In this document: piece after piece, positions 32,723-45,806 of the stretch
Layout of the letters: every line of letters starts with the position of its first letter
Position numbering within the stretch: position 1 is the stretch's first letter
Source: Chloroflexota bacterium
GTDB taxonomy: Bacteria > Chloroflexota > JAJPGV01
DNA: 60,118 bases
Assembly (NCBI GenBank): GCA_021325635.1
Contig: JAJPGV010000058.1
Coordinates: 1-60,118 of the forward strand
Direction of reading: 5' to 3'
Notes under the pieces: model-generated
Told to the model about the DNA's origin: nothing
The model's input: only the letters and a program-made list of their open reading frames with translations
The model's database searches: none
Translations under genes and position numbers: made by a program

Positions 32723-33883
32723 TTGAACGCGCCGCCACTCCCGCGGTACGGCGAAGCTTCCCTCCCTGATCTAACGCCATCGATGATGGCGGCGCTGGGG
32801 GTGCCGGTATTCCGCAACGTCCTGGGCCTTCCCGCCACGGACCGGCTGTGTCTGCTGGTCGTCGACGGCCTGGGCTGGGAGCAGCTGCGGGACCACGAGC
32901 GGGAAGCACCCTTCCTCAATGAGCTGGCCCGCTCGTGCAGGTCCATCACGACCGGCTTTCCGTCAACGACCGCGGCCAGCGTGGCGTCTCTGGGCACCGG
33001 CCTTCCTCCGGGTGGACATGGGCTGGCCGGCTACACCCTGCTGCTTCCGGGCCACAGCCGGGCCATGAACGTCCTGCGCTGGACCCCGTACGGTGTGGGC
33101 CACGCCGAGACCAACCTGCTGTCCAAGCTCGATCCCGAAGACTTTCAGCCGCGGGCGTGCGTGTTCGAGGTGGCGCATGACCACAAGGTCGACGTGCTGT
33201 TGACCGGGCCGGCTGTGCACGAGCACTCGGGGCTGAGCCGGGCGGTGCTGCGCGGCGGTCGCTTTCGGGTGGCGGTCTCGCCGGGGGACCTCGCCGGCGT
33301 GGCGCTCGGACACCTTGATGGCCCGGGCGTCCGGTTCGTCTACGCCCACTACAACGAGCTCGACACCACCGGCCATGTACGCGGCGTGGACTCGCCCGCC
33401 TGGCGCCTGCAGCTCTCCCTCATCGACCGGATGTGTGAGACGCTGGCAGCCCAGCTGCCCAGCGGCGCCGTGCTGGTGATCACGGGAGACCACGGCATGG
33501 TCGACTTGCGGGCCGATCAGCGCCTGGATCTCGACGACTATCCGGCTCTCTCACACGGGGTGCGGGTCATGGCCGGCGAGGGCCGCGCCCGTTACCTCTA
33601 TACACAGCACGGCCAGGAGCAGCACGTCCTCGACGCCTGGCGTGCGGTCCTCGGCGACAGAATGTGGGTCCTGCCTCGCGACGAAGCCGTCAGCGCCGGC
33701 TGGTTCGGCCCCGACGTCACCGAAGCGGCCCGGTCCCGCCTGGGCGACGTCGTCGCTGCGGCTCGGCCCGGCATCGGCATCTTCCAGCGCTCGGTCGACC
33801 CTGGGCAGGCGTCCCTCGTCGGCCACCACGGATCGCTCACCCCAGCCGAACAGTTAGTGCCGCTGTTAGTCGCTGGGCGCTAG
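32723..33883 (+). CDS. Type I phosphodiesterase / nucleotide pyrophosphatase family protein
   Basis: This 386-aa alkaline-phosphatase-superfamily hydrolase has the first metal aspartate in RLCLLVVDGLGWEQL. The nucleophile threonine region is TTGFPSTTAASVASLGTG, followed by GGHGLAGYT. Further ligands lie in YAHYNELDTTGHVRG and VLVITGDHGMVDL. No signal peptide is present, so it may act in the cytoplasm. A TTG at 32723 begins the PRYGEASLPDL lead that I recall from homologues, and an ATG at 32783 is the fallback. The last codons and the TAG stop lie inside the heptamer array, so the C-terminus AGR is repeat-encoded. Confidence 0.87.
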   Translation: MNAPPLPRYGEASLPDLTPSMMAALGVPVFRNVLGLPATDRLCLLVVDGLGWEQLRDHEREAPFLNELARSCRSITTGFPSTTAASVASLGTGLPPGGHGLAGYTLLLPGHSRAMNVLRWTPYGVGHAETNLLSKLDPEDFQPRACVFEVAHDHKVDVLLTGPAVHEHSGLSRAVLRGGRFRVAVSPGDLAGVALGHLDGPGVRFVYAHYNELDTTGHVRGVDSPAWRLQLSLIDRMCETLAAQLPSGAVLVITGDHGMVDLRADQRLDLDDYPALSHGVRVMAGEGRARYLYTQHGQEQHVLDAWRAVLGDRMWVLPRDEAVSAGWFGPDVTEAARSRLGDVVAAARPGIGIFQRSVDPGQASLVGHHGSLTPAEQLVPLLVAGR

Positions 33884-34008
33884 GCGCGAGGCGCTGGGCG
33901 CTGGGCGCTAGGCGCGAGGCGCTGGGCGCTAGGCGCGAGGCGCTAGGCGCTGGGCGCCAGGCGCTGGGCGCCAGACGCTGGGCGCTGGGCACGGGGCACG
34001 GGGCGCGA
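33869..34008. repeat. Heptamer microsatellite array between phosphodiesterase and Rrf2 genes
   Basis: Nineteen contiguous 7-bp units (33876-34008) follow the pattern GGCGCNN. They are mainly GGCGCTG, GGCGCTA and GGCGCGA, with three diverged units near the end. The array begins inside the last codons of the phosphodiesterase gene, whose stop TAG spans two units, and ends 10 bp before the stop of the convergent Rrf2 gene. It is the reverse complement of the unit family at 1-156. Confidence 0.9.
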
Positions 34009-39641: not shown

Positions 39642-39807
39642 CGTTACCCAACCTCCTAGATTCGGCGGTGTTCGATGAGACCAGGGTATGCCACCTTCCT
39701 GAACGTTCCGTTAATGCGGGGTTGTGGCCCGGTTAAGTTGCCAACAACGATGGCACGCGCGAACGTTGGCGCTTCAGCCCGCCTCTATCCCCAAGCGGCG
39801 CTCGATC

Positions 39808-39917
39808 CTAGGCTTCGTCGGCATTCACGTCCGATCCCGCCAGCGCCTTGATGACTCGCGCCCGCTCCACCAGGAGGTTGCGCATGTAGTGCTCGAGGAA
39901 GAGCGTGTCCAGAAACA
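39808..39917 (-). pseudogene. C-terminal fragment duplicated from the SRPBCC gene
   Basis: The minus strand encodes DTLFLEHYMRNLLVERARVI, then KALAGSDVNADEA and a stop. This is nearly identical to the end of the gene at 40832-41302 (LFLERYMRNLLLERARVIKA). About 100 bp align with few differences. The rest of the gene is absent upstream. It is therefore a partial duplicate, not a gene. Confidence 0.85.
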
Positions 39918-40221: not shown

Positions 40222-40749
40222 CTAGCTGAAGTTGCCGGCAGCAACCATGCTGCTGGCAAGTGCCACGCACTCGTCGCAGATGTAGGAGCCCTTTCTGGCA
40301 CCTCCGGCAATCATGCCGCGGACCTGCCCATGGCCCTTTCCACAAAAAGAACAGCGCCAGCTGGATCTGTCCTGGTCGGTTGCCGCTCGCAGCAAGCCTT
40401 CGACGTAGCGGTTAATGGACGTATTTTCACGACTGGCGGCAAGCTCGACTTGCGCCTGCAACGGCCGCGGCAAGCGGATCGTGAGCTTGTGATCGCCTTC
40501 GGCCTGGAATAGGCGGAAGTCCTTCCGAGGAGAGGCGGTGTGCTCAAAAAGATAGTGCAGCGACGCAGGCCATTCCGGCTCAGGCAACAGCTGGTGGCCA
40601 TTCTCACCTTCAGCACCCAGGCCGAACGGCTCCAACCGTGCCACGAGCTCGCCAGATTGGAGCTGGTCGGGGGCATTAAGGATGAAGAGCTTTGGAACCG
40701 ATGAGCTGGGGTCCCCAGGAGTCAGTTCGTGAACAAGCGCGTAATGCAT
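40222..40749 (-). CDS. Ribbon-helix-helix protein fused to a ClpX-type C4 zinc finger
   Basis: This 175-aa protein has three parts. An N-terminal region of about 80 residues (MHYALVHELTPGDPSSSVPK and on) is unrecognised. Residues about 85-120 read KLTIRLPRPLQAQVELAASR, then ENTSINRYVEGLLRAA, a HicB/Arc-type ribbon-helix-helix. The C-terminus WRCSFCGKGHGQVRGMI, then GSYICDECVALA, is the ClpX zinc-binding domain, with its four cysteines but no AAA+ ATPase. In ClpX this domain dimerises and captures adaptors and substrates. The fusion could link a DNA-bound antitoxin-like module to ClpXP. AGGAGG stands 9 nt before the ATG at 40749. Confidence 0.82.
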   Translation of the reverse strand: MHYALVHELTPGDPSSSVPKLFILNAPDQLQSGELVARLEPFGLGAEGENGHQLLPEPEWPASLHYLFEHTASPRKDFRLFQAEGDHKLTIRLPRPLQAQVELAASRENTSINRYVEGLLRAATDQDRSSWRCSFCGKGHGQVRGMIAGGARKGSYICDECVALASSMVAAGNFS

Positions 40750-40831
40750 GAATAGGTCCTCCTGCCACATTTCAACCTATTCTAGCCGTCATGCCGTCAT
40801 ACCGTCATGCCATCACGGATCTCGGCGCTCC

Positions 40832-41302
40832 CTAGGCTTCGTCGGCATTTACGTCCGATCCCGCCAGCGCCTTGATGACTCGCGCCCGCTCCAGCAGGAG
40901 GTTGCGCATGTAACGTTCGAGGAAGAGCGCGTCGGCTATGCGGCCGAGGATGCCGAGCGGCGAGGCATACGCAAAGTCGTCGATCATCAGCGTCCCGCCC
41001 TGGAATTCTCGGAACTGATGCCGGTGCGTGAAGTACTCGAACGGCCCCTGCGCCTGCTCGTCCACAAACTCATGCGGCCGCTCGCAGACAGTAACCCTCG
41101 TCGTGAGCCTCTGCCTCACGCCGAAGTGCACGGCCTCCCAGGTGACGTACTGCCCGGCTCCAATCAAGCCGCTGGTCACGCCGGCTACCGCGCGCTCTTT
41201 TGTCCGAGCCGTGGATCGCGTATGCACGTCGATATCGCGGTTGAGGTCGAAGCAAACGCTCACCGGCGCCGCGATGAACGTCTCGAGGTGAATGACTGGC
41301 AT
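40832..41302 (-). CDS. SRPBCC (START/Bet v1-like) family protein
   Basis: This 156-aa ligand-binding-fold protein has the opening HLETFIAAPVSVCFDLNRDI, the central QYVTWEAVHFGVRQRLTTRV, and the closing helix LFLERYMRNLLLERARVIKA. SRPBCC proteins bind hydrophobic ligands or act as cyclases. The ATG at 41302 is 8 bp downstream of the DUF2071 gene stop, so the two form an operon controlled from the 42043-42109 interval. A duplicate of its 3' end lies at 39808-39917. Confidence 0.87.
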   Translation of the reverse strand: MPVIHLETFIAAPVSVCFDLNRDIDVHTRSTARTKERAVAGVTSGLIGAGQYVTWEAVHFGVRQRLTTRVTVCERPHEFVDEQAQGPFEYFTHRHQFREFQGGTLMIDDFAYASPLGILGRIADALFLERYMRNLLLERARVIKALAGSDVNADEA

Positions 41303-41310
41303 GGGCAGCC

Positions 41311-42042
41311 TTACGCTGCCGCCCGAAGTGGCGGCTCCGCGCGCCAGCAGCAGGGGACGTTGCGCATAATCAGCGCGGAGTCGAACTCGACCGTACCCGC
41401 CGCAAACAAGCCCCGGTCGCCGAAGAAGCTCGATTCCACGTGCTCGACGGCCAGCGGTTCCACGCTCCAGCGCTCGGTAATAAGCCTCACGCTCTCATGG
41501 CAATCGCAGCGGTCCGTCGCCGAGAAGCCAACACTGCCGCCCCGGAAGAAATCGGAGGCTTCCGCCAGGGACGCGAACACCGAGCCGGGCGACAGCCGGG
41601 CGATGGGATGACCTTCCACCTCGACGCGAGCAACCAGGTCGAGGCTGCGCATGACGATCGTCAGGTGATCTCGGGAGTCCGTGACACTGAACAGCGCGCG
41701 GTGATGAACGCCTGGAAAGGACCGACCGCCCAGGGCGAGGTTCATCGCCGAGCTCGTGTCACGCCGCGGGATGTAGACCCCGCGCCGTTGTCTGTCGTTC
41801 TCGAGCCACGTCACCGCAACGCGGTGAGCGGCGTTCTCCGAGCTGAATCCACACATTGGGGGTAGGCCGCGGGGCCGCACCTGGCCGAGCCGAATGAGAC
41901 AGATGCCGGCCATGCCCCAACCATTGACCAGCTGGGGCGCGAACGGCGGTGGAAGGAAGCGGGCCAAAGCATCGGGCCGAACACGGAAGTTGATCAGCAG
42001 GCGCCGCTCGATAACGCCATCCAACGAACGGATGTGGAACAT
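41311..42042 (-). CDS. DUF2071 (YqjF-like) family protein
   Basis: This 243-aa protein has GVIERRLLINFRVRPDALAR followed by FLPPPFAPQLVNGWGMAGIC, the N-terminal signature of DUF2071. A beta-rich body includes RRGVYIPRRDTSSAMNLALG and FFRGGSVGFSATDRCD. The family fold resembles acetoacetate decarboxylase-like proteins but the function is unknown. Its ATG at 42042 is divergent from a TetR gene, with a palindrome between them, so it is the likely target of that regulator. A mosaic copy of its middle part sits at 45312-45665. Confidence 0.87.
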   Translation of the reverse strand: MFHIRSLDGVIERRLLINFRVRPDALARFLPPPFAPQLVNGWGMAGICLIRLGQVRPRGLPPMCGFSSENAAHRVAVTWLENDRQRRGVYIPRRDTSSAMNLALGGRSFPGVHHRALFSVTDSRDHLTIVMRSLDLVARVEVEGHPIARLSPGSVFASLAEASDFFRGGSVGFSATDRCDCHESVRLITERWSVEPLAVEHVESSFFGDRGLFAAGTVEFDSALIMRNVPCCWRAEPPLRAAA

Positions 42043-42109: not shown

Positions 42110-42742
42110 TTGAGCAGTCCGGCCCGCACCACGATCCGAGCGGCTGCGCGCGCTCGGATCGTGGCGGCGGCGCTGCGAACGCTGGAGGAGAGCGGCTACG
42201 CGGGCGCCACCGCCAGGGCGATCGCCGCGACTGGCGGTTTCAATCAGGCGCTGATCTACTACCACTTCGAGAGCATCGAAGAGCTGCTGCTGGCCGCGCT
42301 GAAAGAGTTCAGTGAGAGGCGGCTGGCGCGCTACCGAAAGGCTCTGGAGGGCGTGACGGAGCTGACGCCGCTCGTCCGGATGATGACCCGGCTGTACGAA
42401 GAGGATGCGAAGTCCGGCGAGCTGGCTGCCGCTCAGGAAGTCGTGACCGGCTCGGTCATCTCACCGGAGCTGCGCCAGCGGGTCATGACCCTCATGGATC
42501 CATGGTTTGCCTTCGCCGAAGAGGTCGTTCGCCGCCTGCTCGTCGGCACGGTGTTCGAGGAGCTGGTTCCGGCCAGGGAGCTGGCTTACGCCTTCGTGGC
42601 GCTGTACTTCGGCGTTGAGACGCTCGCCCGTTTCGATAACGACCGTGCTCGGGCCAACGCGCTCTTCGAGAGCGGTGCCCGCCTCGCGCCATTGGCCGAT
42701 CTGGTCCTGCACTCGGACCTCGAGCTCGTCGACAACCCGTAA
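42110..42742 (+). CDS. TetR/AcrR-family transcriptional regulator
   Basis: This 210-aa regulator has the N-terminal HTH AAALRTLEESGYAGATARAI with the recognition helix GFNQALIYYHFESIEELLLA. A helical ligand-binding domain follows. The only in-frame start near the HTH is the TTG at 42110. It is divergent from the DUF2071-SRPBCC unit. The effector is unknown. The last 16 residues (LADLVLHSDLELVDNP) recur in the degenerate copy at 45665-45718. Confidence 0.9.
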   Translation: MSSPARTTIRAAARARIVAAALRTLEESGYAGATARAIAATGGFNQALIYYHFESIEELLLAALKEFSERRLARYRKALEGVTELTPLVRMMTRLYEEDAKSGELAAAQEVVTGSVISPELRQRVMTLMDPWFAFAEEVVRRLLVGTVFEELVPARELAYAFVALYFGVETLARFDNDRARANALFESGARLAPLADLVLHSDLELVDNP

Positions 42743-42800
42743 CCAAGAAGCTCATGGATGGACATGCTCATCAGCGCTATTACCGGACCCGTTGGCGCAC

Positions 42801-43799
42801 TCACGCGCCGTATGCCGCGGCCACCGCATGAAAGGCCTCCTTGGGCTCGGTCCGTCCGTCGCTCCATGTGCGCACCAGGCAATATGAGGCGGCGTCCAGG
42901 TCCAGTTCCGCGTTTGGGTTCGAGGGGTAGCTCGGCGCCACCAGTGTGTAGATGAAGCCGCCCTCCAGACTGGCCGCGTCGTAGGTGCGCAGCAGATCGG
43001 CCAGCTCACGCACCTGCTCGGCCTCGTCTCGCACCGTCCCTGGCTTCAGCTGTGCCGGCGATGAGCTGCGATCGGCCATGGTCCAGGCCATGCTTCCCAT
43101 ATCCGCCGCACCGCGAAAGGTAGCGCAGCCGAACTCGGTCACCACGACGTGCTTGCCGTGGCTCAGGTAGCCGTCGAGCTTTTCGGAGAAGCCTGCGCGC
43201 GTATGGGCGTCGCGATAGGCGTCGATGCCCACAATGTCGAAAAGGCTCCAGTCGACGTCCTCCCACAGGCCGGCGCCGTACGTCACTGGCCCGCCGAAGC
43301 ACGCTCGCGCCGTGTTGACCGCTTGCTGCAGGAAAGCGGCCATGGTCTCCCGCGGGTCCTTGCCCCCGGCCATCACTGCCGGAATGAGCCGCGCCGGGTC
43401 CGACAGCAGCTCCAAGCGCTCCAGCAGCGTATCGCCGGGCACGATGCCCTTCAAAAAGCCGGACAGCTCCAGACCGACGATCAGCGTCACCGGCGTGCCA
43501 TCCCGCCGCTGCCGCTCGCCCAAGGCCGCCGTCTCGCGCAGCAGCGCCAGCGTGTCGGCAGCGGTGCCGTTGGTCAGGAAGGGCGACAGCCACACCTCCA
43601 GGCCGCGTTCGGCCGCCAGCTTAGCCGCGACGGCCATGCGGCCGGCGTCCTTGCCGCTGATACGGACCGCATTGGCATGCAACTCGCGGGCGATCATGTC
43701 CAGCTCGCAGGCCATCTGCTCGCGTGGCAGTTGCGGCCGTGTGACCTTGCCGTCGACCGTGTCGATGCCCACGTCGTAATGGATGCCCTTGATGCGCAT
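42801..43799 (-). CDS. GH-A-like TIM-barrel protein (often annotated abortive infection protein)
   Basis: This 332-aa barrel protein begins MRIKGIHYDVGIDTVDGK and has LHANAVRISGKDAGRMAVAA. LTNGTAADTLALLRETAAL and VTLIVGLELSGFLKGIVPG follow, then WSLFDIVGIDAYRDAH and VVVTEFGCATFRGA. The two glutamates in GLELSGF and VVTEFGC match the acid/base and nucleophile positions of clan GH-A glycosidases. From memory, databases label close relatives abortive infection protein without evidence. Its ATG at 43799 faces a TetR gene across two perfect dyads, so it is probably repressed by it. Confidence 0.78.
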   Translation of the reverse strand: MRIKGIHYDVGIDTVDGKVTRPQLPREQMACELDMIARELHANAVRISGKDAGRMAVAAKLAAERGLEVWLSPFLTNGTAADTLALLRETAALGERQRRDGTPVTLIVGLELSGFLKGIVPGDTLLERLELLSDPARLIPAVMAGGKDPRETMAAFLQQAVNTARACFGGPVTYGAGLWEDVDWSLFDIVGIDAYRDAHTRAGFSEKLDGYLSHGKHVVVTEFGCATFRGAADMGSMAWTMADRSSSPAQLKPGTVRDEAEQVRELADLLRTYDAASLEGGFIYTLVAPSYPSNPNAELDLDAASYCLVRTWSDGRTEPKEAFHAVAAAYGA

Positions 43800-45311: not shown

Positions 45312-45806
45312 TCAGCAAACACGCCCCGGTCGCCGAAGAAGCTCGATTCCCACGTGCTCGACAGCCAGCGGTTCCACGCTCCAGCGCTCGGTGATAAGCC
45401 TCACGCTCGCATGGCAATCGCAGCGGTCCGTCGCCGAGAAGCCAACACTGCCGCCCCGGAAGAAATCGGAAGCTTCCGCCAGGGACGCGAACACCGAGCC
45501 GGGCGCCAGCCGAGCGATGGGATGACCTTCCACCTCGACGCGAGCAACCAGGTCGAGGCTGCGCATGACGACCGTCACGTGATCTTGGGAGTCCGTGACG
45601 CTGAACAGCGCGCGGTGATGAACGCCTGGAAAGAACCGGCCGCCCAGGGCGCGGTTCATCGCCGGCCATTGGCCGATCTCGTCCTGCACTCGGACGTCGA
45701 GCTCGGAGACAACCCGTAACCAAGTGAGCTCATGGATGGACATGCTCATCAGCGCTATTACCGGACCGGTTGGCGCACTCAGGCGCCGTATGCCGTGGCC
45801 ACCGCC
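45312..45806. pseudogene. Mosaic duplicate: DUF2071 interior joined to TetR 3' end and TIM-barrel 3' tail
   Basis: Bases 45317-45665 repeat 41406-41751 (DUF2071 gene, minus strand) at high identity. Bases 45665-45806 repeat 42688-42828, which covers the TetR C-terminus, the intergenic spacer and the last codons of the TIM-barrel gene. About 936 bp present in the source block are missing at the junction. An extra C near 45352 (GATTCCCACGTG against GATTCCACGTG) shifts the DUF2071 frame. No part can be functional. Orientation is the same as the source. Confidence 0.9.

Follow-up and report, generated by a model that had tools for sequence, protein, structure and literature searches.

A ribbon-helix-helix protein fused to a ClpX-type zinc finger, with a candidate operator at its own promoter

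A gene joining a ribbon-helix-helix (RHH) domain to a ClpX-type C4 zinc finger was found in a 60,118-nt stretch of DNA, referred to below as the window. The minus-strand ORF 40749-40222 encodes 175 aa and carries, in this order, an N-terminal region, the RHH and the C-terminal finger; the fusion is genuine. With about even confidence, the product is proposed to be an autoregulated RHH repressor whose finger provides a second means of dimerisation or of protein binding. A preliminary description had spoken of a new type of regulator; the domain combination is genuine and new, and it is made of known parts, stands isolated as one gene in one genome and does not amount to a new system.

Domain architecture of the protein

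The start of the ORF (40222-40749, minus strand) was placed at 40749 for the Shine-Dalgarno sequence AGGAGG (40758-40763, minus strand) lying 8 nt before this ATG. Pfam matched zf-C4_ClpX (PF06689) at residues 132-170 with an E-value of 1e-13 (51.3 bits, cut-off 27) and HicB, an RHH family (PF05534), at residues 88-120 with an E-value of 1.7e-5 (25.1 bits, cut-off 21). With both domains above their cut-offs, the fusion given in the preliminary description was confirmed, including the RHH-then-finger order, the finger motifs CSFCGK and YICDECVALA and the absence of an AAA+ module, the ORF stopping 5 residues past the finger match. NCBIfam ClpX models cover the finger alone, and its PDB matches are ClpX N-domain chains (e.g. 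2ds5 and 1ovx). The DNA pattern spanning RHH to finger has a single match in the window and none in 100 shuffles.

The RHH (residues 85-125; 40375-40497, minus strand) was assigned to the HicB/Arc type from Pfam, hhalign and the secondary structure predicted by AlphaFold2. In hhalign, residues 1-130 matched at 90.6% probability across residues 85-124 when compared with 19 HicB-family sequences from phylum genomes plus a seed that was itself one of the 19, and residues 1-86 alone gave 0.2%. Judged from sequence, the RHH is of HicB type and the N-terminal region is not recognisably a HicB N-domain. Residues 1-84 (40498-40749, minus strand), described before as an unrecognised domain, indeed belong to no recognised family, Pfam giving no match for them even at E<=10. 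Third-position G+C of the ORF is 0.688 (0.67-0.87 in the neighbours), the codon signal is weak, and the reading-frame score is barely above that of the antisense frame.

Single-sequence AlphaFold2 prediction of the protein was uninformative (pLDDT 39). An alignment-guided prediction was made with 41 fingers in the alignment, the added rows spanning the finger only; here the finger was modelled confidently (pLDDT 84-96 in blocks spanning residues 131-175) and the RHH region with moderate confidence only (pLDDT 58-74), as a strand at 88-92 and helices at 95-106 and 111-125, the succession typical of an RHH. The pLDDT was below 50 for residues 1-21 and 42-81, and the N-terminal region was modelled as mostly strand-forming. 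A Foldseek search of the PDB with the alignment-guided whole-chain model gave no match at E<=0.001.

Anatomy, origin and distribution of the finger

All four zinc ligands (C133, C136, C158 and C161) are kept in the finger (residues 132-170; 40240-40356, minus strand). The comparison set consisted of 86 fingers from ORFs also carrying AAA+ motifs, taken from fetched loci and biased to one phylum and to phages; numbering is that of the E. coli ClpX finger, assigned on what we take to be its sequence. Relative to this set, the four Cys, F17, V25, I29, A30, G31, Y35, I36, V41 and L43 are kept, and positions 47 and 48 show conservative changes. Position 27 (K/R), basic in 86/86 ClpX fingers and Gly in 0/86, is Gly here; P32 and C44 are replaced by Gly and Ala, respectively; and acidic residues 46, 50 and 51 have become S, A and G, with loss of the ClpX acidic tail. 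All these positions are invariant or near-invariant in the set. The loop between the ligand pairs, a hairpin, is 3 residues longer than in E. coli ClpX. By sequence comparison, the hydrophobic core positions are kept and other ClpX-typical positions have diverged. The finger is of the same family as the N-terminal zinc-binding domain of ClpX and has the cysteines and hydrophobic core positions in common with it; in ClpX, however, an AAA+ module follows the finger, whereas here the finger is C-terminal.

The nearest finger, at 57% identity and with the same insert, stands alone as a 76-aa protein encoded in the same genome. A DNA pattern for the 3-residue insert type matched these two genes only among 400 phylum genomes, with 0 matches in viral contigs. 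As far as sequence tells, the standalone small-finger lineage of the same genome is the probable source of the finger; duplication of the small finger within the lineage, followed by fusion to the RHH, would be the most economical reading. In a 180-aa protein encoded on contig C36 of the genome (L004 1459-2001), C4 finger-like units occur twice, the second exceeding the zf-C4_ClpX cut-off, and no other domain is present.

Searches of phages and plasmids (tblastn), of viral contigs and of 100 relatives returned no full-length relative; the comparison genomes have only the phylum in common with the source genome, which is an isolated lineage among them. In 300 phylum genomes, residues 1-133 gave RHH-level or short matches only. 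One of the few RHH-level matches is an RHH protein (L037 948-1472); the ORF beside it (70-960) apparently specifies a DUF4097-type protein. A pattern scan of 84,980 species, one genome each, gave no other RHH-finger protein; it demanded particular spacings and an Asn codon AAC with C as the next base, and so had partial coverage. It returned 48 stretches in which a finger came after an RHH motif. Where the finger was in frame, the stretch was in nearly every case the start of a ClpX gene; the few others, L156 and L170 among them, lacked a recognisable RHH. In viral pattern scans for such a protein, the AAC version gave 1 stretch without an in-frame finger ORF and the AAT version gave 0, and the viral loci picked up by means of the finger alignment encoded either ClpX or a finger standing alone.

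Standalone ClpX fingers after a short N-terminal extension were observed in viral contigs L089, L091, L093, L107, L109, L111 and L120, and are possible ClpX decoys or adaptors. The order of ClpX finger, then HTH-like C-terminus, recurs in L085 2998-3369 (a Streptomyces zaomyceticus plasmid; WP_327166968.1), L039 823-1329 (same phylum) and L156 5020-5652 (a proteobacterium), with HTH matches below Pfam cut-offs in all of them; the arrangement recurs across distant phyla and is apparently unstudied. These proteins likewise combine a ClpX finger with a probable DNA-binding segment in the absence of AAA+, but their HTH-like part comes after the finger, and the RHH described here before it. Literature searches for the ClpX C4 finger with an RHH, with an antitoxin or alone returned nothing relevant.

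Promoter array and surroundings of the gene

A sigma70-like promoter lies upstream of the ORF at 40779-40808 (minus strand), with -35 ATGACG and -10 TAGAAT separated by an 18-nt spacer (9/12 matches, a level for which 0.3 are expected by chance in 1.8 kb). The -35 element falls within a tandem 8-bp array at 40785-40816 (minus strand; TRF, 3.9 copies at 40785-40815), GTGATGGC-ATGACGGT-ATGACGGC-ATGACGGC, which is a candidate autoregulatory operator. The array gave 2 overlapping pattern matches (0.03 expected), and 20 Markov simulations of the window yielded 0 comparable arrays. Its exact two-copy form is a single site in the 4.64-Mb genome; one-mismatch sites elsewhere in the genome number 12, against 4 for a reversed control, a weak excess. 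The other comparable arrays in the window are two long minisatellites. G+C-rich minisatellites whose units are based on 7 bp lie at 33867-34006 and 1-156.

Contiguous short repeats serve ParB/omega of pSM19035, which needs at least four contiguous 7-bp repeats for full activity (PMC9499535), and MetJ, whose target is given as a tandemly repeated 8-bp palindrome in the title of a paper cited in PMC3274233. Here, such repeats lie at the promoter of an RHH gene, but their sequence differs from both operators and, unlike the MetJ box, the unit is not palindromic. Autoregulation is considered the most likely function because tandem short repeats are a known form of RHH operator. We know of no ClpX-type finger in MetJ or omega.

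The neighbouring genes (DoxX-like, ankyrin, SdpI/DUF1648, SRPBCC, DUF2071 and TetR) are chromosomal in character, and no phage, clp or toxin gene was recognised among them. The ORF is flanked by two copies of a 103-nt SRPBCC 3'-end piece: the copy at 40831-40933, upstream, is the 3' end of the intact SRPBCC gene, and that at 39807-39909, downstream, is a partial copy, 94% identical. The 8-bp array lies outside this duplicated segment. Elsewhere in the window, 41402-41735 and 45315-45649, as well as 42688-42827 and 45665-45805, are duplicated at 93-97% identity and approximately 3-3.9 kb apart; the copies take in portions of the DUF2071 gene, of the TetR 3' end and of the gene that follows, and are probably left over from a local duplication. 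The promoter array, the paralogous finger and the flanking repeats do not appear in the preliminary description.

Proposed function and alternatives

The gene product would bind DNA through its RHH and control its own expression, most likely by repression, with RHH dimers arranged next to one another along the tandem 8-bp array that spans the -35 of its own promoter. For the C-terminal finger, a further role in dimerisation or in binding other proteins is envisaged, probably to steady the complex formed on the array or to accept a partner. That the protein binds DNA, represses and dimerises via its finger is inferred, as is the finger's partner. In the ClpX N-domain homodimer, the hydrophobic core is formed from C-terminal helices and hairpins, and CsfB, which is approximately 20% identical to the ClpX domain, dimerises likewise (PMC5890618). 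CsfB/Gin of Bacillus subtilis is an anti-sigma factor and thus represents a dimeric treble-clef finger outside ClpX that acts as a protein-interaction module (PMC5890618); it has no RHH, and sigma binding is not implied for the protein described here. The finger has more probably been repurposed for dimerisation or protein binding; contact with ClpX is a possibility. Against autoregulated repression, the gene is single and has no homologue of the same layout, so that no conservation stands behind the array or the fusion; the weak codon signal, the non-palindromic array unit and the unexplained residues 1-84 also count against it.

Coupling to ClpXP, as put forward in the preliminary description, fared unevenly: the domains are indeed fused, the operator-like array adds weight to a role in DNA binding, and the ClpX part stands as a possibility, which we rate as a minor one. 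The finger would pair with the N-domain of host ClpX or capture ClpX adaptors, with the outcome that a DNA-bound repressor or partner is passed to ClpXP or that adaptor use by ClpX is blocked. The clearly ClpX-type character of the finger, with its hydrophobic core positions, is consistent with this, as is the presence in the same genome of a ClpX with a standard finger, encoded downstream of ORFs which, by eye from their translations, presumably specify trigger factor and ClpP. Furthermore, the zinc-binding domain of ClpX on its own forms dimers and, in vitro, inhibits delivery mediated by RssB (PMC7226468). The changes at K/R27, P32, C44 and acidic positions 46/50/51 and the hairpin insert speak against ClpX contact in a suggestive way only; the lack of a recognised clp or toxin gene nearby points in the same direction, and the example of CsfB cautions against reading ClpX function from a similar treble-clef dimer (PMC5890618). 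That the RHH repressor docks on host ClpX via its finger and is removed from the array by ClpXP is rather improbable.

A HicB-like antitoxin of a toxin-antitoxin pair that gained a finger at its C-terminus is disfavoured and considered very improbable. The RHH is shared with the HicB family (PF05534), and a domain of approximately 75 aa similarly precedes the RHH in HicB antitoxins; the N-terminal region here, however, is unlike HicB in both hhalign and Pfam. Pairing with HicA is not supported: three HicA-type genes above cut-off are present in the genome, on contigs C15, C50 and C45, and none matched on C59, the contig of the ORF. PADLOC also gave no defence family match for the 175-aa protein. 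A recent chimeric gene produced by local rearrangement, expressed or not and without a selected function, is an unlikely explanation that nevertheless fits several observations, namely the position of the ORF between the two 103-nt SRPBCC pieces in a stretch with other partial duplications, the lack of a relative in anything searched and the weak codon signal. An intact ORF with all zinc ligands and two domains above cut-off argues against such an origin, as do the Shine-Dalgarno sequence, the promoter-like site and the specific array outside the duplicated segment.

ClpX N-domain-type fingers outside ClpX are scattered across bacteria and phages and are seemingly unstudied in the literature searched. 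A ClpX-docking RHH repressor, if true, would be a self-contained proteolysis-coupled switch. With its finger tied to a DNA-binding domain and a candidate operator, the gene provides a small system in which to ask whether such fingers contact ClpX or merely dimerise.
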